NCBI GenBank assembly: GCA_030374765.1
Contig: JARGXX010000026.1
Span: 372,001-436,000, forward strand
Direction of reading: 5' to 3'
Source: Agarophyton chilense
Lineage: Eukaryota; Rhodophyta; Florideophyceae; Gracilariales; Gracilariaceae
Length of the DNA: 64,000 bases
The position numbers and the translations under genes are program-made. A model generated the notes under the pieces. That model was not told the DNA's origin and did not search any database. It saw only the letters and a list, made by a program, of their open reading frames with translations. Numbering within the stretch: position 1 is the first letter of the stretch; the number at the start of each line of letters is the position of its first letter. Positions 25,672-64,000 of this stretch are shown here, piece by piece.

Positions 25672-26487
25672 CCTCTGTGATACGCGCTAGAGCCTCGCCC
25701 ATTCCTAGGTGCTTGACCCTGCATGTCTCGAGCAAATTGAATTTCTTGGCGACGTTCCGAATGAGGAACGGGCTTGACACCTGCACGATTAAATCGCCGG
25801 TGCTTTGACCAGTACTGCCAGAACATGAAATACGAGTCATTCAGATTACCTCACAAGATATCGGGAAGAACCGCATTTGGCCTTAGCTGCTGCGCAACGA
25901 TACCATCTCTCGCCCAGATTCTTTCTTCTCAATTGAGAGTTCTTGGGCCTTCTCTTGCGACTTTTTCCATCCCAGACACTCACAATTCAGAAAACAGTGG
26001 AGGTTTGCACCTTGGAACGGCTGAGTGCTGAGTGCAGAGTGCAGGTGAAACCAAAACGTACACACAAAAACTGAGTCCCGACTTGAGATGACGGTTGCAA
26101 TCATTCTGAGTGTTGCTACTCGAGCTCAATGTAAGCAAGTTTGTGCTCTCCACAAGCGCCTCTAGCTAGGTAGGTAGACAATGAAAAGTCGTGATCGGGT
26201 TTGCAATCTCGTGTGAATGATAGAAAAGTATACTCTGACAGTCCTGCGTTGATCTGAAGTGGACTACATATCGCTGATACATACTGTACAGGGGACCGGG
26301 CCATTACCGTACATTCGTATGTATTTGTTGGTTTCTTCTGCTGGGCAGATACTGTAACTGTTAGATACGGTGGGTCACAAGCGATCCGCCTTCACGTGGT
26401 GTGACTGACTTCCCTCGTTTCTAGGGAAGCGAAACGGATCTGCGGTTGAGTCTCCAACGGAGACCAGCATATTTCAGGTTACCAAAG

Positions 26488-28305: not shown

Positions 28306-28597
28306 GGTTGATGTGTGCCACAATTTTGGTCACTAGATCATGGGGTGTGGGTTTCTCTAGGGGAACAATAAGGAGGCCGAGTATGTCATTGGGTACGCTG
28401 CTTAGTACTGCGGAGAGTATTTTGTTCTTCTTCGTGTTGTGTAGCTTGAGTTCCTCTGAGTCCTGTGGGAGTGGGGGGTTGCCCTTGAGTTGATCGGTGG
28501 CTTCGATGGTAGCGGCGTACGTGTCTACCGCCAGGTACCATGGCGCGTAGTTTGCCGTATCGAGAGTGGGGAGTTTATGTGTTTTGTCGGTGTCCAT
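28306..28597 (-). pseudogene. Copia-type gag N-terminal fragment
   Basis: From an ATG at 28597 the minus strand encodes KLPTLDTANYAPWYLAVDTY, then KNKILSAVLSSVPNDILGLL and PHDLVTKIVAHI, the pattern of Ty1/Copia Gag N-termini (a Leu-x-x-x-N-Y-x-x-W start followed by helical blocks). About 97 codons remain before the sequence changes to LINE at 28305. Upstream (28598-28860) may be the element's leader; no LTR or primer-binding site was identified. Confidence 0.7.
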
Positions 28598-39703: not shown

Positions 39704-39894
39704 AAGAGCAATTCTTTCGTGGATAACTTGACGAAAACTCTTGGTGCTGTACTGGATTGCTAGAGTGGAGCCTGCAAACCGGAAGAGTCGTATTTTAATC
39801 TTTTGCAGAGAGTGAGTGGGAGCGAAGTGGAGAAGCCAATCAGAAAAGAAGTGGGAACGGTGGGTGCAACAAAAAAAGTAGTAGGAAACGTGAA

Positions 39895-42800: not shown

Positions 42801-43546
42801 CGGCAATGTGGTGAGAGAAAGCGAGAGAAAAGGATTGTGAATTTTGGGCGATGGGGTGGAAGAAGGTTTTGTGGCGGTGTTCGAGGGAGAGCTGATGTTT
42901 GAGGACATCGATTGGGCTTTTGAGGTAGGAGGTTGCGGAGAAGCGTTTGAGAGTGTCGGTGATGGAGTGTGGGACGAAGCCGAAGGAACAGATGCGATGC
43001 TTGAAGATGTATCCCTGTAGCTCGATGCATTGGCGGGCGGAGGAGATGGTTCGCTGGAAGGTTGACTTAGAAAAACTTGGATCGTTGAGGACGGCGATGA
43101 GCTCGTCCGCTTTTTCGTGGCCGAGGTTGTCGGCAATCGAGGAGATGTATAGGATGAGCTTCTCTACTTGTGGGTGCTCGAAGATTGGGGTGAAGGGGGG
43201 ATGGGAAAGTGAGGCTGAAGATGAGACGGAGCAGAGAGAACTGTTAGCGATGCGGTGTTCGTCTCCGGTGTTGAGGGAGAGGGCATGTTGTTGGTGGTGA
43301 TAGGAGACCTCACGTACAAGGAATAAGATATCGGAGGGGCGGTCTGAGGGAGCTAGAGGGGGTTAGAGGGGCTTGTAGTTGAGGAGTTGACTTGTGGCGC
43401 TTTTTGCATAGGAGGAAGGGGGTTATGGTTTGTGGGGGCGTGCGTTTTGTGGGGAAAAGCCAGTGAGGGCACCTTCGTTGGTGGCGCTGTAGGGCTGGGC
43501 TGGTGCGGGTGGAGATGGAGCAACGGGAAAAGCAGCAGCGACGCAT
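39895..43546 (-). mobile_element. Decayed DDE transposon of KDZ/Plavaka-like type
   Basis: Minus-strand transposase broken by stops and shifts. N-terminal Cys/His finger (CCFSRC...ALQRHQRRC, 43474-43546); FIxLYSDKSS near 42670, where a TAG interrupts (42679-42681); NITLVGYLPT (about 42535-42565); another stop at 42331-42333; FAFETIHNFHLGISKV (about 41940-41990); LKFHLLEHIAEEIQRYGG (about 41389-41440) followed by YEHAHTLFKAHDSHTSQRR; and the end block LAFVQFLEVVPP, HTVHPVPI, RFYLNRF (39950-40240). This succession matches, from memory, the large transposases of fungal Plavaka/KDZ elements. Terminal inverted repeats were not found. Pieces are in different frames, so it is inactive. Confidence 0.55.
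40500..40930. other. Non-coding insertion within the transposase relic
   Basis: About 430 bp without coding character, less purine-biased than both flanks and containing an AT-rich core (ACTAATTAAAATAAAATAAT). Both sides read as transposase. A B-box-like GGTTCGTATCC near 40538 hints at a SINE-like origin but no tRNA can be folded. Limits are approximate. Confidence 0.35.
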
Positions 43547-44272
43547 GGTGTGGAATGCGGGGTGCGCGTTGATGCGGAAAGAAGGAAAAAGAAGCAGAAA
43601 GTCGTAGAGGTTAAGGTGCACGGGGTGCAGTGATAATTATATGGGGAGAGTTGTGGGGCATGCAGTTCACGTGAAGCCGGGCTATGTGGAGGAGTCGAGA
43701 CGGACTACGGGCTCTGACAGCTGCGTTGTGGTAATTTGGGAATTTTGCCATTTGCCGCCGATGTGGCATATTTCTATTTCTATTTTGATATTCATTGCTA
43801 CTGCCAGGCTTCACTTACTAGTACGCGAACATGAGTGAGGGTAGCAAAATTTTGAAATACATACATAATGTTTTACAATGCACACCTGATTGGGGCTCGC
43901 AAAACTTCGGATCATGCAGTTTTTTGCTAGTTCAGTATCCCTTAAAACTAGCAACTTTGAATAAGTGAAGTTATTTTGAGAAAATATGGAACTGCAAATT
44001 TGAAAAATTCATGGGTTTTCTGTATATTTTAGTTAGTCCGTTTCTGACGCCTAAACTAGCATTCTGAGAACACAGACGGACGACAGCCGCTCAGTAAACT
44101 TCAGGGGCATCGGACTCTTCCCCCACTTTTACCATACACAAACGCTTGCGCCGCAACACTTGGCACAATGATCACTGCGATACTGTGGTTGTATCGCGAC
44201 ACGTTTGATCAGCTATGGCGTCCGCATCGACGCCAGATGCGTCCACATTGACGAACTTTAATTAAACCGGAG
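43547..44272. other. Intergenic region between transposon and Gypsy relic
   Basis: No gene is supported. The AT-rich block 43780-44060 may include LTR or leader sequence of the following Gypsy relic, but no paired LTR exists in the window. Confidence 0.4.
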
Positions 44273-46487
44273 ATGGAAGTTACATCCTCCAACACCATCA
44301 TCTGTCTCTTTCCTGTCAATCATCCCCGTTTGTTTCTCAACCACCTCAAGGGCGATTCGATTGTTTCTGCGCCAATACGACCAGTACAAAAAAGAAGTTA
44401 TGGCTCGAGCATTGCAACTGACAGTTGTAGACGCGACTACAACCGAACCAGTCCGTCCAGTTAACCTCTCCTACTGTGTTGACGCCGAACGGCTAGAGTG
44501 GTCAATCGACTTGGAGTACATCCCTGGTGTCAAGACTCTCCAAGACCTCACAGAAAACAAATTAAGGGCATGTTTAGAATCCGAAACAGAAAAACAGAAA
44601 GATACGATGACCATTTCCGTCATTGACGCAATCATACGTAGAGAAGTGTCAATGGACATGAGCGACACATCCTCACGATCGCGTATGAAACATCTATTCA
44701 CTACCTACGTATCCGCTCTCCGACGCAATAAACTCTCATGGGTAATGAAAGAACATCAGAAACTTGCTGTAAGTCACCTCATTTCAGCCATCAAACCAAA
44801 ACTCTTGCAGCGACGATTGCAGACGAACCAAGAACTGGTATACAAACCCGTTGAAGAAGGACTTCAAAGGATTTATGAAGCATGCCATGACCGTATCGGA
44901 AGCTTTCCAGATCATCAATAATGGACCGCCAACCAAGCCTAGAGAACAAAAATCGCGCAGTTCGTCTAATGCATCTCTAAAACAATCAAACATTGGTGAA
45001 GCAGACAAGTATCCTGATAGCTCTGCTGTTTTGCACAAACATTCTGCTAGTAAAGGGACCACACGCCGGCTCCCACCTTTCTGCTCTCACCCTCCGTGCA
45101 AGTGAAAGGAAGAACAACAATGGACAGACGACTGTGCTGTGCCAACAGACGAAGAAAAGGAACGTATGAAGGCCAGCATTGCTGCAAAAAAATTCGCTGA
45201 TGGGCCATCGCGATTCAACAGAGCCCACAGAGAGAGGAACTATCTGAACAACCCGAGAACAATTGGTCGCTTCAAACAGAAGAAACGACTGATTTTTTTG
45301 TGAGTTCTTCAAATGGAACCAACTCCATTGACTCAAGTGGCCGCTGCGATGATGGGAGCGACGATAGCAATGTCACGCAGACGCTTGCAGAGTGTGCCAT
45401 AGCCAAAGTAATTGTTACCATGGATCCGATCGCCAAGGTCACACTCTCTGTGGCTCTGAAATAGAAAGACGCCAACTCTGCGCAACGTTTTACGTTTTCC
45501 AGAATGTGGGTGGCGCCGCGAACCACACTGCATCTTGCTTCCGGCATTGTAGCCCTTATGAGTATCTCGTTTTTGGTTGCAGATGATGACCTTGCTTGCG
45601 AGGAGCGGCTCATTGGAAAACCCATGATGGAGCACCGAAGGGTAGACACCTACACACTCTTGGACAACAACAAGTTCGCACTCAACGGTTCGGACTGCTC
45701 AGAAGTAGAAAAACCTACCAACCGTGTCCTAAATGGACAGTCGAGCTATCTAATGATAGCACGCCTAAACAGTGCCACCGAAACACCCGAACTATCTGCA
45801 ACCCCCCCGAGGGTAAACTACCATACTGGTCGTCAGGATTAAGACCCGTTCTCGGATCCTTCTCTACTTGAACCAGTCGACTCGGACCAGCATGAAGACA
45901 TCCGTGAAGCAGCACTAAGGATGGTCCAAGAAGCCATTTAAAACGGTTTTCCCTCCGCTAATTCAGACGAGCTCAAGCTCATTGTGAAAGACCACCTCAA
46001 CTTTTTCCGGACGAAACTATTCTCGGGACCACTTGCTTTAGTCAAGCCATTGAAAATCACACTCACACCTTATGCCCGTCTGATACGTATTCGTTTGCGA
46101 AAGTACGCACAAGATCAAAGAACCTTTCTTGGAAAGTTTGTCTCTGAACTTATGCAAGCCGGAATGGCCTACCCAAAAACTTCATCTCCTTGGACATCAG
46201 CACCGCTCATTGTACCGAAACCTAGACCAGCACGTTTTCGCTTCACGGTCTATCTGCGCCCAATCAACTATTACACTGTGAAACACCAGTTACCGATGCC
46301 GAACATCGAACAAAAACTTCTGAAGCTCGCACACTCTCGCTTCTTCGCAACGTTCGATCTCTCGCAGGGAAACTGGAAATTCTCTCTCGACGAGGACTCA
46401 CAGGGATTGCAGTCACTCATCGCACTCGACGGCGTCTACTCGCCCACGTCTGTGTTCTCGAAAAGCCAACATTTGCAGCTAGTTTAG
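44273..46487 (+). pseudogene. Gypsy-type retrotransposon relic: gag, protease and partial RT
   Basis: Gag begins at an ATG at 44273, shifts frame near 44355 and continues with LFLRQYDQYKKEVMARALQL and a helical gag body; a further shift leads to a degenerate Cys-rich knuckle (about 45080-45140). 45500-45680 reads SFLVADDDLACEERLIGKP, the end of a retropepsin-like domain. 45984-46487 encodes the RT N-terminal part (SAPLIVPKP, PMPNIEQ, FFATFDLSQGNWKFSLDEDS) including motif A, then the sequence ends before YxDD. No LTRs are visible. Multiple lesions make it inactive. Confidence 0.75.
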
Positions 46488-46689
46488 TATACGGCAAGAT
46501 ATCCGGCAAAAAGCTGCGAAAAATGACAGATCGCAGATGCTGAGGCAATTTCTTTTAATTTTTTTAGAGTGCCAGCTAGTTTTGGCTTTGGTTTCTTTAT
46601 CAAAATCCTGCCTATTATGAATGGAAAACGAATGCAGAAGCCCCTGCTAGTTTACCGTCTATGTTTGGATGCCAAACCCTATATGTGAA

Positions 46690-49150
46690 TGACAAAATTC
46701 TGGGTCAACCCCCTCACACCGACCCATACCACAATGATACCTCCCACAAATACCATCCAAAATATGACCTGGTCTCGTCCACCCTCCCCTTGCACCCCTC
46801 ATCCTCCTCCCCAATCCCCGAAATCCCCGCTAAAAACCCTCCTTCCTCCTTCTCCTCCTTCCCATCAACCCCCTTACTCCCAGCTCCAAAAACCGTCCCA
46901 CCTACCCTCCCAATCCTCACCCTACACCAGCCCCTCACACGCGTCACACATCAACCCCGCCCGTCACCACTCTTCTCCCAAACACCCCTCCCATCCTCTA
47001 CCTTCATAGCTCAGACTCACAACTCTCTTTCTCCTTCCTCAAACCGCCGACGTCACCACCGCATAAGCCGCCATCATCTCTAATTTCGCACGCTCAATAA
47101 TCCCTTCACCACCTCCCCCATCGCCCTACCTCACAACACAAACGCTAATTCCAACTCTCCTTCTCCTCCGCATTCTCTTCTTCGCAAACAACTCTTCCCA
47201 CCGGTGCGTTACCTGCTGCGGCCGCTTTCTATGGCTGAAAACCAGCGGCGCGGCTCAAAACATGACACAGATCGACCCTAAACGGCCAAACCCTCACATA
47301 GCATGCGTTACAACCGCTCCCGCGCATACCATTCCCCGCCATTTTATTCGACAACTAAACACCCCGAACCATTTATTCAAAAACTTTCTACCATTTTCGG
47401 CATTTCCATTCAATTTTTCCTCAGCCATTTCCCCTCTTATCCATTTTAATCCGCCCTACGCCTCATACTTGCGCTTCTAACACCCACTAAACTCGTTTTT
47501 CTTTCCTTGGCAGCCATCCCACGTCCCTCATTATTACAAAAATCATTGTTCCTTGTGCTCATATCCACCTTCCTTCTTTTCTATCACCTTCTGCACCTCT
47601 TTTATCACTTGTGCTCTATACCAAATTGTCTCCCATATCTTTCCTTTTGATGTAACGCTACCCCATATAATATATGAAAAAAATCCCCTTCACAACACAT
47701 AGAACAGCGCTCTATGCATGCCATCTATCTTGTTACTATTACTTGCACTCTCCTACTTCAATAAACATCTCTCTTCGTCCATAAAATCACAACAACACCC
47801 TCTTTTTCGCGGCCTTCCCCATCACAACTACCATAATTCATCTCTCAGTTCCAAAATTGGTCTTGGCAAACTCTCACTTCCAAAGACACATCTTTCTCCA
47901 CCATGACGTTTCAGCCACTCCCGACTTTAACATTCTTTCTCACAATACTTTCCTCAGTTTCAACAATTGCTTGAAGCTCGAAGTCGGGAAGGACAACAGC
48001 AACTCACATGTTTCGGAAGCCTCATGTATTCTAACCAATGCAGTGAAAACAGAAATGACCAAAATCGACCAGCTACTGCGCCAGAACCACTCTGACCACC
48101 GATTCTTAGGAAACCAACTCCTTCTGCGTGACCTCTCACACCTTCACCATGTATCCTAATACATTTGTTCTTCTGAATTCAATTCCATAATTCACTTCCA
48201 TTTGGCTAGTCTTCCGTCCTCATATCCTTCTCCGTCCTCATATCCTTCTCCATCCTCATATCCTTCGCCAACGGGGCTATATACGGTGTTTTGAAACCGC
48301 TGCTCACCATTTCCCTTCTCCCCAGCCATTCGTATTGTGATACAGAGACCGGATTTACCTACTGTACAGTGTCATCGAGACAATACTCTATATCATGCTA
48401 TTTGACCTTGCCTTCCCCCTTCACAACGACTTCTTAGGATCCCTCTCTTCCTGCGTCAAACCGCACACAAACGACACGTGCCCATGGAAAGACCTCCTTA
48501 GATAGAAGCCCTCCACCATCGACTGACCGGAGGAGTAAGAAGTAGAGCTCCTTGTTCACATCCTGTCCAATGAACCCCACAACGCACTGCGGCAGATTGA
48601 ATACCATCGCCGCCAGATTTGCAGGCATTGCCATAGCTGGGATTCCTCGCCCTCAACTCCATAATTTTTGCCGCCTATGACCTCAGACCCACCCCCTTTC
48701 TCTCCCATTCTCTCACGTTTTCTATAAAGACCCCCTCCTTCGCCTCCTTTCCCGCCGGCCCCTTCTTCGCTCTCACACTCTAACTTGTTGACAGGGTGGC
48801 CGTCTACTTGCTCATAGGCCACGCTTTCAAAAACAGATTCACTTTATCTTACTCCTCACCCTCCCCCTGGAAGTCCTTCCGAAGAGTATTCTTCATGAAG
48901 ACGTCTTTCTCTCCGTGCGCACCTTTTTCAACAGAGAAGTCCGCGTCTTCTCGGCACACTTTGCTTCCGAGTTCATCACTCCTTCTGCTTCCTCCACCTA
49001 CAAACATTTTCCACCCCTTCTTACAAAAACTCTATTCATACTCCTCCTCGTCTGCTCCAGTGATATCGATTATGAACTCAAGCACAAGTTCAAGCGACAC
49101 ATTGCAGCCATCGGAACCCCCCCGGACCATTGACCTTCCACCACCTCCCC
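46690..49150. other. Strongly pyrimidine-rich region with weak coding traces
   Basis: The plus strand is dominated by C and T over about 2.4 kb. Protein-like stretches on the plus strand (47857-48159 with LKLEVGKDNSNSHVSEASCI; 48840-49133 with FFNREVRVFSAHFASEFI) suggest decayed coding DNA, but no family is recognised. Pro/Ser/His-rich ORFs at 46661-47083 are low-complexity. Confidence 0.45.
48214..48267. repeat. 18-bp tandem repeat, three copies
   Basis: Unit CCGTCCTCATATCCTTCT in three near-identical copies. Confidence 0.85.
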
Positions 49151-49599
49151 TACGAATAACTTTTTAGTACAGTACAAGAACAATAAATCACACAGGTCTA
49201 ATGTACCGATACCACTCTTCACTCTACACAGTTCAGCTAATTACATGTATCTCTTTTATAGAGAACGATAAATACTTTAGGAACCAAGTCAAGGCGGCGC
49301 TAGATATTCAAACGCACCGGTTTGAGTCAATTCTGAAAAGCAGATATATATGACTAAGTATGAGAGAAGAGAAAAGACGGTGACGCATTCGCTACCATTG
49401 ATATAAGAATATACGTATGGATTTGCCTGCAACGGAAGGAATGCAAAGGTTTAGGATCAAAACAGAAGGCACAAATATTTGAGGATGGGTTTGCGTCGAT
49501 ACCAAGGATCCCCCTTAATGTATCATTGTATCACAGCTTGGGTCCATAGTTTCTACTATTCTTTCTATGTAGTCTGCCTACATTGGAGGTGAGGGGCTG

Positions 49600-50263
49600 T
49601 TGAATCTGTTGAATAACACCGAAGTGCCCGAATCGCTGCCTCCCGGAGATGAAGCAGAAGCAGATGGCTGTAAGGAAAAGCACGAGAAGAAGTACAGTGT
49701 TGGGCTAGGAGAGCTAGGTGTTGGAGTAATGGCAACAAATGGAGGAGGACAAGGGAGCCGAGGAGCGGAAGACAGATTCAGGGAAGAGATGAAGACTCGC
49801 GTTAAAGCTTTTGGCCACTCGTTGAAGGAAAGTTTGTATACACGCATAACCGAGGTAGTGATTGAGTATGGCTGCGTATCTTTTAGTACTTCTGACGGTG
49901 GTATTCCGCTTGAAATCGTTACTATCATTTAGAATCGTATGAAAAGGGCCGGGCTTTTAATTGGGAGATCTTGTCGAAGGAATTGTGGACTGCTTGGTCC
50001 CAAAAAATGGGACAATGTATCGAAATCAAAATGCCCTGCAACACAGAGTAGATGTGCTCGAGAAGCAGCTCATGAAGATAGTTCATATTAAGGCACAGCT
50101 GGCGGACAGGACGGACGGAATGAGCGGTGGCCAAGCCAGAGCAGGTGCAAAAGCCAATGCGACAATAAATGTTTTGCCGGTGACTGCAGGGAAGAGGAAG
50201 GGTAGAGAAGACAAAGCGGATGATGTAGAGCGATTTACTCATCTCAAAAAGAGATGCGGATAA
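49600..50263 (+). other. Two adjoining open frames of unknown nature
   Basis: 49600-49932 (SLKESLYTRITEVVIEYG, then SDGGIPLEIVTII at its end) and 49961-50263 (with a helical stretch HRVDVLEKQLMKIVHIKAQL) each look protein-like but start with TTG, not ATG. They could be parts of one frameshifted gene. No family recognised. 49151-49599 holds nothing supportable. Confidence 0.3.
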
Positions 50264-50385
50264 CGTTATGGATCGTAATTTTTGATGAGGATTGAAGGGT
50301 ACGGCTCCTAGCTTCTAAGCGCTTTCTGAACCAACTTGAATTAGAACAGTGCTTCGTTTACAAATTCTTTCATTGCTCTCCAATA

Positions 50386-51422
50386 TTAAAAAGTATTTCT
50401 CATCACTAACTCTCCTCCTCCATATCTTTTTTCCGTTCTCAATTTTCTCTTGAGTATAAATCGCATCGTCCTCGTTATCATTAACATCATCATTGGGCTC
50501 GTACTCACCATCGTTTCCATAGCTTCCATTTCCGAGTCCTTGCTCTCCTCTAAAGCCTCTCCTGGCACTCTGTTATAAGCAGAACTCTCGTTTTCGCTCC
50601 CTACTCCTGGTAAAAGTAACGTCCCCTTCGTTCCCTTCCTGTCCTTCTGTATTAACTCTTCGGCCTCCACAAACCTCGCCCTGAAACTCAATCGAAGTTG
50701 GACCGCATCCAGCCGCTCGTAGTCCTCTGGTTTCATGTACATATGATAATGGAACAGAGCTTCTGCGACAATATCCCATCTCTACTCCCTGCTCATGCAT
50801 GCGACACAGCCCCTCTTCCATTGAAGATAGATAACGGCGGTATGAACATTCTGGTTGCATATCCTCCAGAAAATGGTTCCAACTCCGGAAAATGCTTTTG
50901 AGACCTTTTGCACACCCACATTGGGAAAAAACACTTCTCAGAAGCTATCATGAAGTATCCGGGATTCTTCCTTCTCAGCTTCTCCGGGATTTTCAGCGTC
51001 TGAAAGTCCGTATGCAGCTTCTGCCTAGGGCAGCATCGTACAGTACAGAGCATTTTACACTCCGTCTTTGGTGCATACATCTTATGCTCCGCCACCTTAT
51101 TATCTTCCAATCCGAAACAAACGCATATCTGACCCATGCGTGCATCCAACAAACCCCACCTCTTCACGACCCAGTGAGTCTTCGCTGCTTTCTCCATCTC
51201 GTCCCGAATTCCCCTCGTCGTCGTCATATACCTCGATGAAATGTAGGAGACGAAGTGATGGAGCTTAACGGCTGGGCGGGGGCTGGGAGAAGGAGAGCGG
51301 AGAGAAGCGTGGAGAATACGGGCAGCGTCTGTGGAGCGTACAGAGAAATCGAGCTGGATGGATTGGTAGTCATCATCTTCAACGAGCGGGACGTTGTCAG
51401 AAAAGCAGTTCGAGATGCGCAA
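50386..51422 (-). pseudogene. Unrecognised coding region with a frameshift
   Basis: Minus-strand frames 51422-50793 and 50742-50386 look protein-like and lie in different frames. The first contains LDARMGQICVCFGLEDNK and FMIASEKCFFPMWVCKRSQK, cysteine-rich but without a recognised finger; the second contains FRARFVEAEELIQKDRKGTK and an acidic Met-rich tail. No credible ATG opens the first. The opposing plus-strand ORF at 51255-51626 is an alternative reading with no motif. Confidence 0.35.
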
Positions 51423-51626
51423 GGGGCGGTGGTCTGGGGTCTGGACGCGTGGGAGTTTGGTGCGCGGTGGGAATTGAGTGCCATCCTTGGGAGTGGCTGC
51501 GAGGAAGGGTTTGCCATTGTGGCGGTGTCGGCAACAACGCTGGTGTGGGACAAGGGAGGTCTGGGCTTCTGTCTGGAAAGAACACCCGGCGAAGCGACAA
51601 GATTGCCCGGTGTGGAGGATGCCTAA

Positions 51627-52985
51627 GGGAGATCTCAGAACGTAGGCGGGCGGAGGTGAGGAAGATACAGCCAGTGGTCGGTGGTAGAGAATATAAATTT
51701 GTGAGGCGTAATCATCAGGGGTGAACTTTGATGCGCCAGAGACGCACCAGAGACTCGCATGGCGTGCACGGCGCGTGTGTGGCTGAGAAAATGGCTTAAA
51801 ATGAAAACGTTCAAAGTTATATAATTGAGCGGCGGCGTGGACTTGTGCGGATTGGGAGTAAAAAGGTGTGGTTTTCCTAGAGACCAGATGAGCAATAGTG
51901 AGATATTGAGATCTTGTGATATGATTTCGGTAGTACCTGGTGCCCCTTCCGCGTTTTTATGTGCGTGAGAAGCCGTATTGTGTCCGTTTCGGCGTGCGTT
52001 TCAAAAGCTGAATCGTTTCTATTTGTACCTGAGCGGGCGGAGCACGAGCGGGGCGGTAAGAGATGCGATGTGGGGTTGAAGGTGAGGGGTTTACCAGATT
52101 TCGATTGGGATGTACGTGGTCTACGTTGATCCCGTGCGTCGAATCTGTTCCTGGTCATGCGCGGGCGGGGGGAGCGCGAGTGGAGCGATAGGTGTTGCGG
52201 CGTGTGGTCAAGGGTGAGGGGGGTGACCGGCTGGGAATTGGGAGATACGTGATTTGCTACGCCGATCCGGTGCGTTGGCTCTATCCCTGGTCATGCACGA
52301 GCGAGTAGAGCGCGATTCGAGTCATAGGTGATGTGGCTTGGCGTGGATGGGGAGGGGGTGACCGGATTGATTGCGATTGGTGGTACGTGGCGCGCTACGT
52401 TGTCCTGAAGCGTTGAATATCTTTCTGGTTTCGAGCATGGGAAAACCTATGTCAGCGGCCGTCACGATGAGTAATAGGAGAGTTGGTTACTTCTTCTGCT
52501 TTGTAATATGGACGGAGAGACCTGACATGTTGTTGGTTGTTGATGAGGAGCGACAGATAATTGGAATGAGGGAGAAGGAGTGGTTGATGTAGAAGTGAGT
52601 GCGAATGCCACTGGTGTCCCGTATTGATTTAGGAAGGATATCTGAAATGTTGCTGTTCGCTGCTGAGAATCTACAGAGAGCAAAAATTGGGTGAGGGGGT
52701 GAACCTCCTCGAAGAAGTGGTTCAAGCGAGTTGCTTAAGAGATTAATGCGTCGCTGGAGTAATTTTGTTTCGTTTTTTGATGGGTATCTGACTTATATTT
52801 GTTTATTTTTACGACAATGCTGCCGACTTTGCATGAATGGGAAATGATGGAAGTACGGGTAAGTGCGATTTCAAGTTGTATCTGGTATTGGTTAGAGAGA
52901 AAGATTCCTCTTGCCGTTGTTAGCTGCTGCTAGGAGACAGGAAATCAAAATTGGACAACAATTGGGAGAAGTGGTTGCTGCAGAG
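51627..52985. other. Region without supported genes, left flank of the LTR element
   Basis: Several short motifs recur loosely (for example variants of CGTTGATCCCGTGCGT and GGTCATGC at about 52130, 52265 and 52285), suggesting diverged repeats. No open frame has family signatures. Confidence 0.4.
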
Positions 52986-53901
52986 TGTAGAGCAACGCCC
53001 AGTTAGGGGATACTTGAAGATGCAACTCATAGAATGAGGATTGAACCCTCCGAGGGTTATGACTATGATCCCCTCTAAGGTGTGCTGAGGTGGCACTGTT
53101 TTCTGGTTAGATTTCGCCTATAAGGGAAAATTCGGATGGCCCATGGTTGGATTGGCCCCGTGATACACGTGGCTTAATTTTGGCACCAATTTTCGGATAT
53201 TTGTTAGAACGTTGGACTTTTGGGCCCTGACTGTTGGATCTCCACGTGTATGGCCCTGAGCAGGTGTGCACTACTGTAGAGTTTAGTTAATGGGCCCTAC
53301 TTAGGGAGATGAGATCTGACAGTCCGAAGCTCAGAGTAAATGGTAACCAAGGTTGGTCTTCGATACCTTTAGAGGTTCTTCGTCGCCATCGTCTCGTCCT
53401 TACAACCCGGAACGGGCTCTGGTTAGCAACGCCTGCGTAGGGACACGACTCCACTTGGAGAATGCCCACGTTTGGGTTCCGTGCAACCACCCCTTTGGGA
53501 CCGCTCAGACGACCTGCGTGCACGATACCCCGTGGGGGTTCTGCTTACTTGTTGCGTATTTTTTGTGTTTCCTTTCGATGACAGGTTTTCGCCCCTGTAT
53601 TGGGTTTCTTTTGTTGTTTCGCCCCTTTTCTGGTTCTCGGGTCCGGTGCCTGTTAGTGCCCGACCCTCGCCCCGTTTTTCCTCTTCGCCGGATTTTCCCC
53701 CATTCTTTGGGATACCCATACCCATTCCCGATCCAACGGTTTCTACCCCTCACCTCCGTCGGTACTGCCGGAATCCCCCGTGGGAGTTACACCCCACACT
53801 ACGGGTGGAACGGAGGGCTCTGTCTCTGAGTCTGCCTCCCCCCAGGGAGCAAGGCTTCGAACACCTTGAGAGCACTTCCCGTCGCCGGGTTTTGCTCCAC
53901 A
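52986..53901 (+). repeat. 5' LTR (916 bp)
   Basis: Starts TG and ends CA; matches 62319-63234 along its whole length with about 97% identity by eye. Short ORFs inside (for example one rich in Phe/Pro/Arg at 53353-53829) exist in both LTRs and are probably not genes. Confidence 0.93.
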
Positions 53902-53903
53902 AG

Positions 53904-53921
53904 TGGTCTCCCGACTTAGAA
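53904..53921 (+). promoter_or_regulatory. Candidate primer-binding site
   Basis: TGGTCTCCCGACTTAG begins two bases after the 5' LTR, the expected place and TGG start for pairing with a tRNA 3' CCA end. The tRNA could not be identified by eye. Confidence 0.45.
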
Positions 53922-54128
53922 GCCGTTCTCGGACTTTTGGGTTGGTCATCCACGTGTTGGAATATCTCTTGGAAGAGGAAGCACCGTCGAGAAGATTTGT
54001 TGTAGTGGTCCCCTTTGGAAAGGGTGGAATTGGTTTTTGTTTTTGTTTTGTGTTACGTCATCCGTTCTCCGGGAATCTCGTGATCGAATTTCATCGTTAC
54101 CCCGAATCGTCGGTGTCGTGTCTGCAGC

Positions 54129-56159
54129 ATGGCGCCGCCTACCCGTGGTTCCAGGACCGGATCGAACCGTCAAGCGGATTCAGTGCCCCCGGCCCCGCCT
54201 AGGCCGAGGAGCTCAATTCCCGAAGGTCGGAAGGATTGCGGTATCGATCCGGACACTCGGAGAGCACCCTCAGTGGTTTCAGGCCCTCGAGAGGTCGTGG
54301 CTGTGGGCCCAGCTCCAGTGGTGGAGACCCCCTCAGCAGCACCCCGAAGTCGGGCCGACCCTGAATCACAGCGCCTGGAGACTCGAATCGATATCGCCAA
54401 CGCGGCTCACGTCGAGCTCCTTCAGGAGGTTACTACCCTCCACCTCAAGGTGGAGGACGCCCCGGTGCGGGGAGTCGCCGATGACCTTCGTACCCTGAAG
54501 AGGGATGTGAACTCCCTTTTGGAAAGCTTTGGTACCCCTGGGGTCTTTATCCAGGAGTACCGGAGCCTCGTGGAGGAACACCGCGTGCAAGCGGAACGCT
54601 TCCGAGCTCGGCTGGACACCCTCGAGGCCATTATCCGTATGGACGGAGACGCAGAAGCCTCGAAGGATAAACCCGACGTTTCGGAAGACGAAGAACACCG
54701 CTCCGCTAAACGGGACCGCTGCAAGTCCAAGAAGAGGGTTTACCTCCAAGAGGATTTATCGGATTCCGATCCAAATCGCTCGCCATCGAGTTCGTCCTCC
54801 GAATCTTCGGATAGTAAAGATGAACGCCGGTCATCCCGGGCGACTCGGTCGAAGGCTACTTACAACTCTCAAGGGGCAATCCGTACCCGGAAGAAGGGTA
54901 GGAAACACCCTGGATTAAGGGAGCTGAAGCCGACGAATCCTCTCTATCGGAAGCTGCTATCGTACCGCTATTACCGGTTGGATAACCCTTCGGGAGATCG
55001 AACATCCCGCGGAACGGGTAAGGTCAAGGACTACATCAAAAGGCTGAGCATCACCCTACAGAAGAGGTAGTTCACAGGAACAGACCCAATTCTGGTGCTC
55101 GATTTCCTTGCGAGGTTCGTCCAGGAGGCTGACATCCTCGGTATGAGTGAAGCGCAAGCGTATCTTGCATTACCCTATTTCTTAAAGGGGATGGCTGAAG
55201 ACCAGTTCAACTCCGTCCGTGAATCATCCCGAGCCTCGGAAGGGGGAGTCACGTGCTGGCCCGAAGTGGTGCAGTACCTCTTGAGGTCATACGCTATTGG
55301 AAATGCGATTCAGGAAGCAATCCTTGCATTAAGGGATACGCGGCAGAAGCCGATGGAAACCGAAACGGTGTATTCAACTCGCTTGAATAAAGCGTTTCAC
55401 CGATGCGGTAATGTGTTCCCCGCCTACGAGAGATGCACCATGTTTGTGGATGGTTTGGACCCCTCGATAAGGGCATTGGTTGCCCGACATCGGGAAGAGA
55501 AGTGCAAGCTGACCTACTTGGAACTGGTTCAGTACGTCCAGGCTGAGGGGGATACTCTCCGTGCCCGGCAGAACCGAAAGAGTCCGCCGACACGTGCACT
55601 CCTCGCCGATGGAGGTAACTCGTCTTTGTCACTCGCAGGAGGCTCTGCCCCTGTGGGGGTCAATGATAACATTCACTTCATGGGAAGTAACCCCGAATCT
55701 ATGGGTACGTCTGAGTTGCCGTCGACATCCGCTCCGACTACGGATGAAGACCCTGCGCTCTATACACAAGGACGGAGGGTGCCAGCCGCATCGCTACCTT
55801 TTGCGAATACCGCTGCTCGGTTCTCTCGCCCCGGATGGAGGGATACAGCACCACGTCGCGTGGATTCACGTCCACAACCGAACCCGGCAGAGCTGATTTG
55901 CTATTTGTGTTACCTCCGTGGTCACAAAGCACCAGACTGCACATTTCCCCTGCGGGAGGGTTCACGAATTATCGCTCAGTACGAGGCTCTGACCCCTGAG
56001 GAGAAAGCTCGAGTCCCGAGTAGGTCCTATGAGGAACAAAGGATACTCCGAGCTCACCTTGCTGACAGGGATACAGAACTTGTACCCGCGAACGGGGAAC
56101 AAACGGTCCCCTTCGAGGCAGCTGCACCGAATTCGGTGGGGTCCGCTTCGAAAAACTAA
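54129..56159 (+). pseudogene. Gypsy Gag with one in-frame stop
   Basis: 676 codons from an ATG at 54129 to TAA at 56157, interrupted only by a TAG at 55068-55070. The first 300 residues are Pro/Ser/Arg-rich with helical stretches; after the stop comes the capsid-like part (LDFLARFVQEADILGMSEAQ, then FLKGMAEDQFNSV and YSTRLNKAFHRCG), then a CCHC zinc knuckle CYLCYLRGHKAPDC (about 55900-55945). The product would form the virus-like particle and bind RNA. Downstream pol lies in the -1 frame. Confidence 0.85.
56150..56156 (+). promoter_or_regulatory. Candidate -1 ribosomal frameshift site
   Basis: In the gag frame the last codons read TCG AAA AAC TAA. The string GAAAAAC just before the gag stop lets the A-site tRNA re-pair fully and the P-site tRNA with one mismatch, and pol is open in exactly the -1 frame across this point. 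A downstream pseudoknot was not assessed. Confidence 0.4.
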
Positions 56160-56161
56160 AC

Positions 56162-59100
56162 TTGGGAGTCTCCCCTGCGGGAAGGGCGTCTTCTAAGCCG
56201 GAGTTGAAGACGCCCGAGGCGCTCCAGCTTCGCTCCCCAGCTGTGACTATCCTTTCAAGGAGAACGGCTGACACCGACGTTAACTCGGGATTCTTTAGTG
56301 TCCTTCGTCGCCCGTGGATACGGTCCCGTAATCTCCGTATTCCGGATCGAGTTATGGTAATGGCCAAGCGGAATTATAAAGTATTCGCCGACTTCGGCCT
56401 GTCCAACCAGTTTATGGTTTGTCAAATATCTGTCCTGGATACAGGAGCCGCTCCTAACTAAATTGATGTGGAATTGTTACCTCCGCTGCTCCGGGTCCAA
56501 GTTCGTACCGGTCCACGTTTGGATATCGCCGATGCGAACAACAAACCGCTACGGACACTGGGTACAATTTCCCTCATGGTGAGGTTAGGCTCCTATCTCG
56601 TTCAGCTAGAGTTTATTGTATGCAAGTCACTTTCAGCACCAGTCATACTGGGTTGTGACTTTTGCGACCGCTTCGTGGAAGCCATCCGTCCTCGGAATAG
56701 AACTGTGGAACTCGAAGACGGGTCTACGATCCCAATCGTTCGTAAACCCTTACAGGGAGCAGCGCGAACACGCGTTCCTCTCCCTGTCGCGCAGGAATCT
56801 GTGAAGAAGGACCCGGTGTCTACACGTGTAAAGGTTGCGAAGTCAGTGGCTATCCCGCCAGAAACCCAGGTTTGGGTCACAGTTGTTACCAAGCAAATTG
56901 GTGTGCATGTGGTACAACCGAACCCGTCTCTGTATACGCGGCGTCAACTCGCCCTTGCGAATGGGGTTGTCGCCGTGGAACCGGATAAACCTTTCAAGGT
57001 TTTGGTAGCCAACTTTGGAAAGACAACGCAGCATTTGGTCAAACACCAGATCCTGGGTTCTGTTCTTCCACACCCGCATGCGGTCGTACCTACAAAGATC
57101 TCTATCGCAGAGGTCCTTGGTGTGGCGAACCCTAAGGAGGGGGAGGACACTGCCGAAATCGCGGAAGACGGTGAGCATACGACTGCAGCTCCACACGCTG
57201 AACACTTTAAACCTCAGAAGGTTACGGCCCCTTTCACAGGAGCAGACCAGACGGATCCTGTTCAGGAATTGGAGAAATGGGATCTCAACCATGTACCCGC
57301 ATCTCATCAGGAGAAGCTGAGGCACATGCTTTGTGAATTTACCCCCATGTGGGATGGTTCCCTTGGAACTATTGGGATTACAGAACACCGCATCGACTTG
57401 TTACCGAACACTCGGCCTATTGCCCAACACCCTCACAGGGCTGGACCGAAAGCTCGGGAAGAGGAGAAATCTCAGGTGGAGAAGATGCTTAAAGCGGGCG
57501 TAACTGAACCTGCCCAGTCCGCTTGGGCCTCACCAGTGGTGTTAGTTCCGAAACCGGATGGATCGTGGCGTTTCTGCATCGATTACAGACGCCTGAACAA
57601 GGTAACCATTAGGGATGTGTACCCGATCCCTCGGATGGACGAATACATCGACTCCCTTGGGAGCGCGACTGTTTTCTCTACCCTCGACGCCAATTCGGGC
57701 TACTGGTAAGTCCCTATTAGGGAGGAAGATCGAGACAAAACGGCGTTCGTGTGTCATCAAGGACTTTTCCGATTCCGGAGGATGTTTTTTGGGTTGACAA
57801 ATGCCCCCGCAACGTTTCAACGGGCGATAGACATTCTGTTGGCTCCCTTCAAGTGGAGGACGTGTCTAGTGTATTTAGACGACATTATTGTCTTCTCCAA
57901 CAACCTTGATGACCACCTCGAACACATCAGGGACGTAATGAAGATACTCCGCGACGCGGGAATCACCTTGAAACTCAAGAAGTGCGAGTTTTTCACCGAT
58001 TCGGTTAAGTATCTGGGTCATATCATCCGTCCCGGACAGCTTTCAATCGATGAAGTACGAGTGAAATCCTTGGAAAAAGTAAAACACCCGAAAACTCAAA
58101 CGGAGTTGCGATCCTTCTTTGGTCTGTGTAACGTGTATCGCCGATTCGTCCCGAACTTTGCGGATATTGCCACCCCCCTCAACAGGCTCCTGACGAAGGG
58201 ACAACCAGTTGAACTGGAACCTTTTGGCGACGCGGAAGCGTCTGCCTTCACGGCACTGGTGAATGCCGTAACATCACCGCCAATCTTGGCTCTACCCAAT
58301 CCTGGGCTCCCTTACGAAGTGGACACCGATGCTAGTGCAAACCAAGTAGGGTGTGCACTGTTCCAATCCTCTGAGGATGGTGAACGTCACCCTATCGGGT
58401 ACTGGTCACGTTCCCTGAATGTACATGAAAGAAACACTCGGTCTCCGAGAAAGAATGTTTAGCCGTTGTGTGGGCCTTAGGTACACTTCGCCCCTATCTG
58501 ATGGGTACTCGTTTCAAAGTCCATACGGACCGCGCATGCTTGTGTTGGCTCCTGGAGATCTGAGAACCCTCGGGCCGCCTTATGCGCTGGCGTCTCCGAC
58601 TGTCGGAATTCGACTTTGAGATCCTGTACAAGAAAGGGAAGCTGAACACTCAGGCTGATGCACTATCCCGCTTTGGAACCACAGCGGAAACTTCGGATGC
58701 TCCTGAACCTGGGCCCGCTCCCTCAAGGGCCCAGTCAACGAACTCTTACAGAGTTACTCCCCCACCGGAGGTAATCAAGCCTCCTGGCTCTCCGCCTAAG
58801 GAGGGGGAGGAGGACTTAGTTCCTTCGCAGGACGATGTTTCGGCGTCAGCCAGTCGCCCTAACAGTGAATCTAGTTCTCACAGTGAGACGGCGAGCCCGA
58901 CCGAGCTGGCGATAGAGAAGTCACAACCCCAGCGTATGGGTAGCGACATCACCGCCGACCCAGCCGAGCACGACGTCAGAAAAGATGACGAAAACCCGCC
59001 TAGGGAGAGTCGTGTGGAGAACTCAGCACCCGGAACGCCTACAGAGCCGACGATCACCAGCTGCCGCGGACGAGACACTGACGTGTCGCACACTCAAACC

Positions 59101-59199
59101 TTGCTTTCTCGGGAACGAGCTGTGTCAGCGGACCCGCACGGGGAAGATCTCGACGACGAGGTTGACCAAATTTGGCTCTCCGTTATGGAATGGGAATAG
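56162..59199 (+). pseudogene. Gypsy Pol: protease, RT and RNase H, broken
   Basis: Retropepsin: ISVLDTGAAPN (about 56430), then after a TAA (56459-56461) LSAPVILGCDF. RT: WASPVVLVPKPDGSWRFCID, then STLDANSGYW, a TAA (57707-57709) and VPIREEDRDKTAF; LTNAPATFQRAID; the catalytic YLDD near 57872-57883. RNase H: YEVDTDASANQVGCALFQ, then a 1-nt deletion near 58435 after LNVHERN, and a TGA at 58561-58563. The frame resumes to 59199 with [17 protein letters not shown] and a long Ser/Glu-rich linker. Integrase zinc finger and DDE core are not visible after it. Lesions are few, so decay is recent. Confidence 0.85.
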
Positions 59200-59749
59200 G
59201 AACTCCTATGGAGACACGAAAACCCTCAGGAATGGGAAAGAAATGAGTGAGACCCGTCGGGGACAGCTCAGGAGAGTGCTAGCGCGTGCCGAAAGCGCCA
59301 CCTCACATCCGCTTGCGGAGTGGCAACCGCCGCCCGCGCATTTATGTGGCACACGTCGAATGTCACCGAGCCGATCAAAAGGCTCTGACGACCAACCGTC
59401 GCGCAAACCGCCTCCGTCGCACGGCGCGTTACACAAGAGCAACCTTCGTCCCCGTAGCTCGGGTTAACGTTGAAGTCTTACCCCCCTGAGATTGGAGACG
59501 CTACGGCGTCGCGGTTTCTCAACCGTCAACGAATCTAAGAACACCGTTGTTATTGGGAAGATCTCAGCTTTAAGCAGAACCCAAAACTGGGCCGTTTTGA
59601 CTCCGTAGACGGAAGTTACAGCGTAGCCCACAGGCCACTCGGCGCCGTTCGGACGAAGTGCTGAGACCAGCTCGCAACACGGAAAAGAACCCACCGGGGT
59701 GTGTCTAGACCCTACGTTGACACCCTCAAGGGAACTAGAGCGTTCCAAG

Positions 59750-60028
59750 ATGGAAGAGAAGCCCGAACAGGGAAAAGTGTACCCGCAGGAATTTGTCATT
59801 GATCGCATCGTGCGTCACATCTACACCCCCGAGGGAGAAGTTCGCTACCAAGTCCGATGGTACGGATTCTCGCCTGATGAGGATACAGTGGATCTCATTG
59901 AGCACCTTCCGAGGTCTAAGGTTTTATCCTATCACCGACGCGCTCGGGTAACCTTGCCTCCAAATCTGGATCGTGCCCAAGTCGGGTACGCCACCACGGG
60001 AACTGGTGTGGATGCGACCTCGAAGTGA
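59750..60028 (+). pseudogene. Chromodomain remnant of Gypsy integrase C-terminus
   Basis: From an ATG at 59750: YPQEFVIDRIVRHIYTPEGE, then VRYQVRWYGFSPDEDTVDLIEHL. This is a chromodomain (aromatic start, Y-x-V-x-W-x-G, then W-replaced-by-other helix) as at the C-terminus of chromoviral integrases, where it directs insertion to chromatin. The 550 bp before it (59200-59749) do not encode recognisable integrase. Confidence 0.75.
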
Positions 60029-60380
60029 GGAAGATGTTGGACCTCTGAAGAGGAATTGAGGAGAGTATCCCGAAGAACACGTATTGAGAGGGAAGGTCTA
60101 CTGGCCCTCGGCCTAGCGCCGTTAACCGGGGAACACAACACCGGTTATCGGGACAGTTTATGATGAAAAAGGAAAAGAAGACCCACGAAGTGGAGAAGAA
60201 GATTAAGAAGAAGATTGGACCCTAGGAAGGGCAGAAGATGAAGAAGATCCTAAGAAGGAATGAAGAAGAGAAGAAGTAGAAGTTAAGATCCTAGGAAGGA
60301 AGAAGAAAAGAAGTTATGCAAATATCAGAAGTTTACTATTGTCGCCAAGCTATGGACTCTACAATTGCCCGAAGGCGGAA
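60029..60380. other. Purine-rich spacer of the Gypsy element
   Basis: 60150-60330 is almost all A and G (GAAGAAGAT-like units) on the plus strand and non-coding. It separates the chromodomain from the antisense ORF. Confidence 0.6.
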
Positions 60381-62237
60381 CTACGGAAAGCCCGAGGAGG
60401 GACCCGCCCCACCGTTGGGATTCTGACCCTGATGGTACGCCGAGGCGAAAGCCAACATCTGGCTTACATCTGTCATACCCGGGGGAATCGGAATGCCTGC
60501 GTTCACGAGGCCTGGTCGCACACTATCCGCTTGCGGAGTGGCATCCGGCGTCTGCGCAAGGGTGTTCACACCCCACCCGGGGGGAGCAGATGGAACGCCA
60601 CTGGATGCATTCGCCGCCGCAGCTGAGGTCGTTCCCACTGGTTGGAAGGGTGCAGATGGCTCCACAGGGAGTACTCCACTAGGAGCTGGCATATCGTTAT
60701 CCAACGCTGGATCGTCCAGGTCTACTGGAGGCTCGTACTCGTAATCGTCGGTATAAATGAACCCCGTCGGGTGTCCCACCGGCATCGGTCGAGGCGAGTC
60801 AATCAGCGCCCGTGCTTGCGCCGCGCTGATGCGAACCCCTTCGAAGGGATTGTAATAGACCCAGTTACCGGAGCCCGGATCGTACTGGCCAGGAGACTTG
60901 TCTCGCGCGGATCCTTCCCCTACGGGCTGATTTTCCGCTGGAACTCGATCCCATTGGGTGTTGTCGATCACGTCCGAGATTGGATACAGGTCCTGCACGC
61001 TGCTGGCCGAACCCAACGCTGGGACAAGGTCGATCTGACGCATGATGGTCCGTAGCATCGGAGGAATATACCAGATACGGAAATGGTCATGAGCATCCCA
61101 GAGGAGGTGCGCCGCTACGCGGGCTGCCCACTCGGCTGCAACGAGGGCCCAGTATCCCGAGTTCGGGTCGTGCATCAAACGAGACCCGATATAGTAGATG
61201 CATGGGGGCAGTTCAGCAAAGCACCCTCGGGGGACCTCGACCTTACTCCACCAAGCTGGAAGGGGCACGAATCGCCCAACCTTCGCCGTGTTACGGATAC
61301 GCTCCAGTTCCACGTGAGGATACGAGACAAGGAACCCGAAACGGGAGCGCGAGCGGCGCTCGAAGCGCACGCGTCGATCGAACCCATACTGGGTAAACTG
61401 CCGTTGAAGTTACCTGAATTCAGCCCGAAGGATGGGACGACTCCATTGGATCATATCTTCTCGGAGAGGAAAACCCGGTCCGCGGAACTCGGCTTCGGCA
61501 AAAGCTGCCAGATTATCCCCGTAGGAGACCTCACCGTACGTGCGGTAATAGGCGACATCGAACCCGTACTCCGGGGGAACCAGATGGTCAAAGCGTGACC
61601 TCTCCAATCGCTGGAAGGCCAGAGCCGCCATCGCTGCGTGCGCCTTGTCCAGGGACTCCCCACGACCGCGGTATAGATACTGAGGCTCTATGGCTACCCG
61701 CGCCCTCCAATCGGGAGAACGTACAACCTCAACAGGTAGGCCACCCGGCAATAAGCCGTCCTCCACGTAGGAGTCGATGAGCTCATCGTCGCGAACCGCT
61801 GTCGGATGGAACCACGGAGCGCGGGAATATATCACCGGATCGGTAAGGGGACTCCACCTTCGAAAGGATTCGTTTGAGATCCAACCTCTGGAGTTTGCTA
61901 CCAAGGGCATCGCATGAGCGGAGTTCCACGCCACCGCGTTAATGTCCAAATCCTCCTGAGTATGTCGGTTGCTCGCCGAGGCGGAAGGTTCGGCACCTGA
62001 CGGAGCCGCATCCAAACCGGAGAGATATCCACCCTGCTGGGGAGCTTCGTTTTCCGCCGGCGCGGAGGCCGACGGCCCCGAGAGTGGGTTGAGGACGTAT
62101 GGGTTCATTCCCTTGAGAGGGCTGGTTGAGACTGCTGTTGCGAGAAGTTGCTTATCGCCGAAAGTCGGAGGAGTAGAAGAAAGTTGTACCGATGTGCCGG
62201 TTTTGTGGCGATCCTCAGAAGCGGTGAAGGACCCCAT
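60381..62237 (-). pseudogene. Antisense ORF of the Gypsy element, one in-frame stop
   Basis: Minus-strand frame from an ATG at 62237 to a TAG at 60381, about 618 codons, interrupted only by TAA at 61410-61412 (…RAEFR, stop, LQRQFTQYG…). An alternative start is an ATG at 62108. The centre (about 61000-61900) has an ordered-protein composition: FDHLVPPEYGFDVAYYRTYG, then FGFLVSYPHVELERI, CIYYIGSRLMHDPNSGYWAL and AARVAAHLLWDAHDHFRIW. Both ends are Pro/Ser/Ala-rich. No known domain is recognised. It lies between the purine-rich spacer and the 3' LTR, the usual place of extra ORFs in plant Gypsy elements. Its length and single lesion argue that it was coding when the element was active. Confidence 0.65.
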
Positions 62238-62248
62238 TGGGAGAGAAG

Positions 62249-62256
62249 TATATATA
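62249..62256 (-). promoter_or_regulatory. Candidate TATA box for the antisense ORF
   Basis: TATATATA on the minus strand, 12 bp upstream of the first ATG and about 140 bp upstream of the ATG at 62108. If used, transcription would begin near 62225 and the 62108 ATG would be the start. Confidence 0.35.
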
Positions 62257-62304
62257 GTGACCGGAAAGCGAGACACCCGCGGCTCGGAATGTTCTTCCTC
62301 GTCT

Positions 62305-62318
62305 TAAGGAGGGGGAGA
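62305..62318 (+). promoter_or_regulatory. Polypurine tract
   Basis: TAAGGAGGGGGAGA directly abuts the 3' LTR, the standard plus-strand primer of reverse transcription. Confidence 0.8.
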
Positions 62319-63234
62319 TGTAGAGCAACGCCCAGTTAGGGGATACTTGAAGATGCAACTCATAGAATGAGGATTGAACCCTCCGAGGGTTATGACTATG
62401 ATCCCCTCTAAGGTGTGCTGAGGTGGCACTGTTTTCTGGTTAGAGTTCGCCTATGAAGTGACAATTCGGATGGCCCATGGTTGGATTGGCCCCGTGATAC
62501 ACGTGGCTTAATTTTGGCACCGATTTTCGGATATTTGTTAGAACGTTGGACTTTTGGGCCCTGAGAGTGGGATCTCCACGTGTATGGCCCTGAGCAGGTG
62601 TGCACTACTGTAGAGTTTAGTTAGTGGGCCCTACTTAGGGAGATGAGATCTGACAGTCCGAAGCTCAAAGTAAATGGTAACCAAGGTTGGTCTTCGATAC
62701 ATTTAGAGGTTCTTCGTCGCCATCGTTTCGGCCTTACAACCCGGAACGGGCTCTGGTTAGCAACGCCTGCGTAGGGACACGACTTCCCTTGGAGAGTGCC
62801 CACGTTGGGGTTCCGTGCAACCACCCCCTCGGGACCGCTCAGACGACCTGCGTGCACGATACCCCGTGGGGGTTCTGCTTACTTGTTGCGTGCTTTTTGT
62901 GTTTCCTTTCGAGGACAGGTTTTCGCCCCTGTATTGGGTTTCTTTTGTTGTTTCGCCCCTTTTCTGGTTCTCGGGTCCGGTGCCTGTTAGTGCCCGACCC
63001 TCGCCCCGTTTTTCCTCTTCCCCGGATTTTCCCCCATTCTTTGGGATACCCATACCCATTCCCGATCCAACGGTTTCTACCCCTCACCTCCGTCGGTACT
63101 GCCGGAATCCCCCGTGGGAGTTACACCCAACACTACGGGTGGAACGGAGGGCTCTGTCTCTGACTCTGCCTCCCCCAGGGAGCAAGGCTTCGAACACCTT
63201 GAGAGCACTTCCCGTCGCCGGGTTTTGCTCCACA
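62319..63234 (+). repeat. 3' LTR (916 bp)
   Basis: Same length as the 5' LTR, TG...CA ends. Differences from the 5' LTR are spread along it, including a 1-bp insertion near 62455 and a 1-bp deletion in a C-run near 63175. Confidence 0.93.
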
Positions 63235-64000
63235 CAGTTCTTCAGGAGTTTCATTCAAAACTTTTCTGCCATTGCTGCGCCCATGACAGCTCTCACCAAG
63301 AAACACAGCGGCATACACAACTGGGACAAGGCGTGTGAAAATGCTTTTCAAAGATTGATGAAAGCGATTACGGAGGCTCCGGTATTGGATGCACCGACAT
63401 GGATGAAGCCATTCAGATGCCATGTTGACGCGTCCCAAAAAGCCGTCGGCGGGACGTTAACCCAAATCGACGACGAAGGGACTGAGCGAGTTATTGCTTA
63501 CTTTTCAAAGAAACTATCTTCCACCGACGAGGACTACACAGCAAACGATAGAGAGCTCCTCGGCCTCGTTTACGTCCTCAAACGATTTCGTTGCTACCTA
63601 GAGGGTACATCATTTGAATTGTTCACAGACAACCAGGTTTTACAGCACTTTTTCACTAAGCCTAACATGAGCAGGAACGAGGCGCAATGGTTAGATCTGC
63701 TTTCGCAGTTTAACACCTCGAAGGTTAACTTGAAACCAGGTCGCGTTCATGTCTTAGGGGACGTTCTCTCTAGAGCCCCACACGTGATGAACGAGACGGT
63801 CCTGGATGTCAACAATGCTCAGCTCTCTTCGCCTGTTTTTCGTATGAACTTTGAAGATCACTACCAGGATGACCAGCTCTTCGGCCCGATATGGAGATCC
63901 TTCAAGAAGGTTTGGCCGAACGAAACGGTTGAAAGGGATAGAGTACAGCGGATGCAAAATCAATTTCGCGTCAAGGATGGAAAACTGTACTACGACAACA
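63235..64000 (+). CDS. Second Gypsy element, RT end and RNase H, cut by the LTR and the window edge
   Basis: An uninterrupted frame of 255 codons begins exactly at the LTR boundary (CAG) and runs off the window. FFRSFIQNFS and PMTALTKK are the RT thumb/connection; FRCHVDASQKAVGGTL, then ELLGLVYVLKRFRCYL and FELFTDNQVLQHFF and HVLGDVLSRAP are RNase H with its Asp, Glu and Asp catalytic residues; the region after 63780 leads to the integrase. Its 5' part is missing from the left side of the LTR element. No lesion is seen. Minus-strand ORFs here are shadows. Confidence 0.88.

Follow-up and report, generated by a model that had tools for sequence, protein, structure and literature searches.

Antisense open reading frames (ORFs) located between pol and the 3' long terminal repeat (LTR), a class named aORF-3R, are described for Grande (gene23), RIRE2, Retand, PvRetro13 and the fungal element Boty in the available sections of PMC7264820. 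For the Grande antisense ORF, an own promoter and a nuclear product are reported in the source text at hand. Retand, a non-chromovirus lineage of flowering plants, carries antisense ORFs with a TRP28 domain, for which a regulatory role has been proposed (PMC11963269, excerpted text). Within the accessible parts of both sources, the function of Gypsy antisense ORFs is treated as still open (PMC7264820, PMC11963269). Here we describe a comparable frame in a 64,000-nucleotide stretch of contig JARGXX010000026.1, referred to as the window, the right end of which is occupied by a decayed Gypsy-type LTR element (52986-63234). Judged from variation among its copies, the antisense ORF of this element (aORF; 60381-62237, minus strand) is probably a protein-coding accessory gene under selection in a high-copy Gypsy family.

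The antisense frame of the window copy

The aORF extends from an ATG at 62237 to a TAG at 60383-60381 on the minus strand and comprises 618 codons, or 619 counting the stop. Its sole internal stop is a TAA at 61412-61410 (codon 276), which confirms the original prediction of a minus-strand frame of more than 600 codons, broken by a single TAA, between pol and the 3' LTR. The remaining five frames of the same stretch contain 9 to 20 stops each, with 9, 20 and 13 in the three sense frames. In 2000 sequences of aORF length simulated with an order-2 Markov model trained on the aORF, the longest open run had a median of 198 codons, a 99% value of 405 and a maximum of 538; none was open throughout, compared with the 618 codons of the natural frame. 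The aORF also obtains the top coding score among the six frames under both host and gag-pol codon usage. As a long ORF opposite gag-pol, between pol and the 3' LTR, it occupies the position by which the aORF-3R class is defined.

Between the ATG and the 3' LTR lies a leader (62238-62318, minus strand) that includes the TATA-like string noticed earlier (62249-62256). The string is present, yet a promoter role for it is unsupported: it ends about a dozen bases ahead of the ATG, nearer than an ordinary TATA promoter would lie, and differs among copies, and is therefore a poor promoter candidate for that ATG.

Conservation of the frame among copies

Copies were sought in the genome (79.8 Mb, 135 contigs) using the C half of the aORF product (329 residues) as a protein query, and the best 122 of 1583 candidates were scored. 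The genome accordingly contains at least 122 aORF copies, the window copy included, with 92-100% protein identity among the matches listed; because only the best-scoring candidates enter this set, diverged relatives may be hidden. Seventy of the 122 copies were read in detail, four of them partly covered (L011, L012, L013 and L019, with 1705 to 1833 of 1857 bp). At the DNA level, the aORFs of the copies are 96-98% identical to that of the window copy.

Decay is widespread. Among the 70 copies, 32 contain one or more in-frame stops (40 altogether), 12 are frameshifted, six show both defects and 32 are open. The level of decay resembles that of pol, as originally proposed: the aORF C half has 34 stops over 122 x 329 codons and the reverse transcriptase (RT) has 21 over 150 x 231 codons, both counted by eye on the best-scoring rows only.

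The frame has nevertheless been kept among copies. All 16 indels found across the 1857 bp of the aORF are private to a single copy. The chromodomain ORF of the element gave a similar picture in the same copies (five indel events, none shared), whereas 23 of the 51 events in the 819 bp preceding that ORF are shared. In the 352-bp spacer used as a control region (60029-60380, strand not assigned), 54 of 154 indel events are shared; the spacer is purine-rich, repetitive and of low complexity, which inflates its count, so that the informative feature is the difference in sharing. The ATG is intact in 66 of the 70 copies, changed in three and not covered in one, and the TAG is intact in 67. Just upstream of the ATG, six of 34 copies share a different frame, and from the ATG onwards they are in the common frame, which is what initiation of translation at this codon would predict.

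A fixed place relative to pol

An RT search of the genome, with the best 150 of 3472 candidates scored, was compared with the best aORF rows. For 63 of these 150 RT rows, the opposite strand carries an aORF row 1-9 kb downstream, and a single same-strand pair within 9 kb occurs among the matches listed. The spacing between RT and aORF is 3.93-4.34 kb in 54 of the 63 listed pairs and 2.3-3.4 kb in the other nine. The window copy, with a spacing of 2635 bp, belongs to the short class and lacks about 1.5 kb of pol (58463-59199 region), where integrase would be expected. Three of the nine short spacings lie within 11 bp of each other, perhaps reflecting a small amplified deletion form. A division into integrase-plus and integrase-minus copies, based on an alignment break near 59345, was rejected because spacing is alike with and without the break: 4155 bp in L003 and 4185 bp in L007, which have it, and 4150 bp in L025, which does not.

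Separately, matches to the integrase H2C2 region (best 150 of 2555) recur at exact periods of 9,734 bp on contig C5 and 6,523 bp on C49. Such head-to-tail units could stem from circular DNA or a concatemeric assembly, or they could be true arrays.

Selection on the frame

Variants in the aORF were binned by the number of copies carrying them, with the window copy providing codon context. Private variants are nearly neutral (nonsynonymous, N, 595; synonymous, S, 258; nonsynonymous-to-synonymous ratio, w, 0.90) and mostly represent changes after insertion. With increasing allele frequency, w drops to 0.76 for variants in two copies, 0.58 in three to five and 0.43 in six or more. The pattern named in advance as refuting a functional frame, that is, randomly placed stops and shifts with dN/dS near 1, is thus seen in private changes and not in shared ones. 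Over the whole ORF, the other two antisense frames have w of at least 1.14 in the shared classes.

This trend is supported by a permutation test in which base change and CpG context were matched. Variants in at least three copies comprise 53 nonsynonymous and 47 synonymous changes (P = 0.0025; expected S share 0.321), and the same procedure reveals no synonymous excess in the two other antisense frames. Third codon positions account for 52 of these 100 variants, and the contrast between private and shared variants persists when CpG sites are left out (Fisher, 0.0036). No stop occurs among aORF variants in at least three copies, compared with 3.9 expected (P = 0.018).

Several results, along with the inflated spacer count, weigh against selection on this frame. 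A second antisense frame is also short of stops (1 versus 6.2 expected, P = 0.013), so the shortage is not specific to the aORF and is given little weight. One sense frame shows equally low w across the shared classes (0.74, 0.67 and 0.35), a consequence of its third positions coinciding with those of the aORF; stops close every sense frame. Ranking the copies by C-half protein similarity biases the C half, with 10 private stops versus 17.9 expected. The ranking penalty should treat private and shared changes alike, and in the N half, which lies outside the ranking, private stops number 20 versus 20.0 or 21.2 expected in two counts. N-half variants in at least three copies follow the same trend without reaching significance (w about 0.67, P = 0.07; Fisher, 0.13). 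When variants were placed on a FastTree tree, those marking clades (n = 35) showed no depletion (N 27, S 8), and those scattered over the tree (n = 231) were depleted (N 124, S 100, P = 6e-05). We read the scattered variants as old recombining polymorphism; recurrent mutation could contribute, and the matched permutation handles it only in part. When only the 38 broken copies are considered, the contrast loses significance (P = 0.23 and 0.30), and it is weak when only the 32 open copies are considered (P = 0.029 and 0.047).

Features and relatives of the product

Protein features were taken from one natural open copy, L003, the aORF product of which has 618 residues and a pI of 5.5. Both ends are rich in Pro, Ser, Thr, Gly and Ala (0.55 and 0.51 of residues), and the 330-residue middle holds 12 of the 16 tryptophans. 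The middle part had been described as an ordered central region, a description that could not be confirmed: two AlphaFold2 models were both of low quality (mean pLDDT 41.2 and 31.3), and a pLDDT above 70 was reached in one short helical segment around residues 568-602. The peak 19-residue hydropathy is 1.06, indicating no membrane-type hydrophobic segment. A single basic cluster (at least five K/R in 12 residues) is found at residues 284-302 and includes an arginine-rich stretch at 287-299. Within residues 287-300, 13 of 14 positions are conserved in 18 or more of 20 copies, and R294 is conserved in 16 of 20. The lack of a membrane segment, together with an arginine-rich stretch between Pro/Ser/Ala-rich ends, makes a nuclear or nucleic-acid regulator the most likely role. 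We accordingly put forward, as a tentative assignment on sequence features to which we give somewhat less than even odds, that the product is a soluble, probably nuclear regulator associated with nucleic acid.

In keeping with the original prediction, no recognised domain was found. A Pfam scan of 20 copies returned no transposase, RT or other credible domain; the best hit, DUF3905 (E = 0.061, five of 20 copies), was taken as chance. At E<=1, PF04195 (TRP28) was unmatched in all 20 copies scanned, and no SMC match was obtained in Pfam. A whole-genome search for PF04195 yielded no match, although its 14 controls likewise yielded none. NCBIfam gave no match to the product, and the Protein Data Bank (PDB) gave none at E<=1 with a profile; a single PDB match obtained with one copy (E = 0.91) was also attributed to chance. 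Pattern searches of IMG/VR (11 matches for the aORF alignment, 3 for the N half and 10 for RT) and of GTDB contigs (54 matches) revealed no relative, and none was expected in IMG/VR or in prokaryote contigs. Within the genome, diverged relatives were sought with three motif patterns (up to three mismatches) built from codons unused by the window copy, which gave 0, 1 and 0 matches. The single locus, L071, was rejected as a relative, since tblastn aligned nothing there with the protein at E<=10. A relationship of the aORF to gag was likewise rejected (BLASTP best E only 0.21).

Weighing of explanations

It is unlikely, in our judgement, that the aORF is a passenger, that is, a gene piece or long chance frame that the founder of a recently arisen family picked up, that is still open because time has been short, and that has no function for the element. 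Such an origin would agree with the slight divergence of the copies, with the failure to find a relative outside the family, with an N-half signal that is not significant alone and with undepleted clade-marking variants. It agrees poorly with the nonsynonymous depletion of shared variants in the aORF, which the other antisense frames do not show, and with the lack of any aORF indel common to two of the 70 copies despite shared indels nearby. A functional antisense RNA, rather than a protein, would tune silencing or stability of the genomic RNA by pairing with its 3' part, and non-coding antisense transcripts are known in other retroelements (PMC7264820, sections available). This explanation is quite improbable, as it predicts neither codon-phase-specific conservation nor a kept start codon nor the absence of shared indels.

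The interval between pol and the 3' LTR is the usual place of env, and an envelope-like or other sense gene misread as antisense would explain both the location and the low w of the sense frame that shares third positions with the aORF. Stops in every sense frame and the hydropathy of the antisense product rule out sense-strand coding unless splicing were massive, and we consider this possibility hardly credible. It is also very improbable that the aORF is left over from a second mobile element that had entered the founder in antisense orientation and whose gene has since been kept or has drifted. A 34-bp direct repeat on the plus strand does tie the 3' end of the aORF (60525-60558) to a site upstream of the chromodomain ORF (59307-59340; 29 of 34 positions identical), yet the aORF product lacks any credible Pfam domain of such an element, and no inverted repeat of at least 40 bp is present within 48000-64000. 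Under the preferred reading of a protein-coding accessory gene, the aORF would be read from the strand opposite gag-pol and translated from the ATG at 62237. The antisense transcript would start within the 3' LTR or next to it, and the product, working on nucleic acid or in the nucleus, might regulate the element's own expression or replication.

Organization of the element and its genomic context

The element is bounded by plus-strand LTRs at 52986-53901 and 62319-63234, each about 916 bp long and 97% identical to the other, with a polypurine tract just ahead of the 3' LTR. No matching pair that could represent a target-site duplication was found at its two ends. Broken gag-like frames (54129-56159, plus strand) were named by position and by eye and gave no match in a Pfam scan. 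The pol frames (56468-59199, plus strand), also broken, matched RT (RVT_1) and RNase H in Pfam. Immediately beyond the element, a downstream frame at 63235-64000 resembles another Gypsy RNase H region by eye.

A small plus-strand ORF at 59750-60028 matches the chromodomain PF00385 (E = 6.9e-06 in the window copy and 2.2e-08 in L003). Its ATG (59750) lies about 550 bp past the stop of the pol frame (59199), separate from integrase, and such a separate ORF behind the pol stop was found in all three copies inspected (window, L003 and L025). The earlier designation of the element as chromoviral is therefore correct as to the chromodomain itself, whereas a chromodomain at the C terminus of integrase, the chromovirus feature, was absent from these three copies. 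An intron, through splicing, may join the chromodomain ORF to pol. The 34-bp repeat that flanks this region has an alignment score of 26, compared with at most 18 in 200 shuffles, and of 70 loci, 53 contain its 17-base core (up to two mismatches) twice and 17 contain it once. It may be a trace of how the 3' region of the element was assembled.

The plant setting originally suggested for the element is unsupported, since the genome carries phycobilisome-linker genes, which make a red-algal host likely and a land plant very unlikely; a plant or oomycete host was dropped. Thirteen matches to the phycobilisome linker family were found, of which six are each on a separate contig and the other seven are all on contig C39. 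On C39, two equal sets of three matches lie exactly 185,684 bp apart, a spacing that, in our reading, would arise if the assembly had run around a circular plastid genome more than once.

Elsewhere in the window, 7747-14868 and 22966-28311 each contain an 824-residue Ser-rich ORF and adjoining ORFs that appear LINE-like by eye. The two regions are near-identical and of opposite orientation, forming a large inverted duplication. GC skew flips sharply within 38001-48000, from +0.40 to +0.47 at 38-44 kb to -0.46 at 46-48 kb.

Comparison with known antisense ORFs

A search of open-licence papers retrieved no report of such an antisense ORF in red algae, which is not proof of absence. The aORF thus adds to a known arrangement, without TRP28, in a lineage for which no report was found. 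It is nearly an even matter, in our estimate, whether red-algal Gypsy elements independently evolved an antisense accessory protein unrelated to those of flowering plants and fungi, which would make a minus-strand regulator next to the 3' LTR a recurrent solution in eukaryotic LTR elements, here alongside a chromodomain moved from integrase to its own ORF; we lean slightly towards doubt. That a seemingly unrelated example occurs at such a distance from flowering plants suggests an arrangement that has been favoured, not one that has been inherited. In addition, the presence of many recent copies in varied states renders selection on such a gene measurable.

Compared with the aORF-3R class, as far as the available source text describes it, the aORF is alike in position, orientation, occurrence in many copies and lack of clear relatives. 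It differs in its host, most likely a red alga, in the chromodomain ORF carried by the element and in having no TRP28 or SMC match at the threshold used. With respect to Retand, as portrayed in the sections at hand, the distinguishing points are the unmatched PF04195 and the PF00385 chromodomain ORF. With HBZ of HTLV, a minus-strand nuclear regulator encoded near the 3' LTR, the likeness is a functional analogy only (PMC7264820, PMC11963269, accessible parts).
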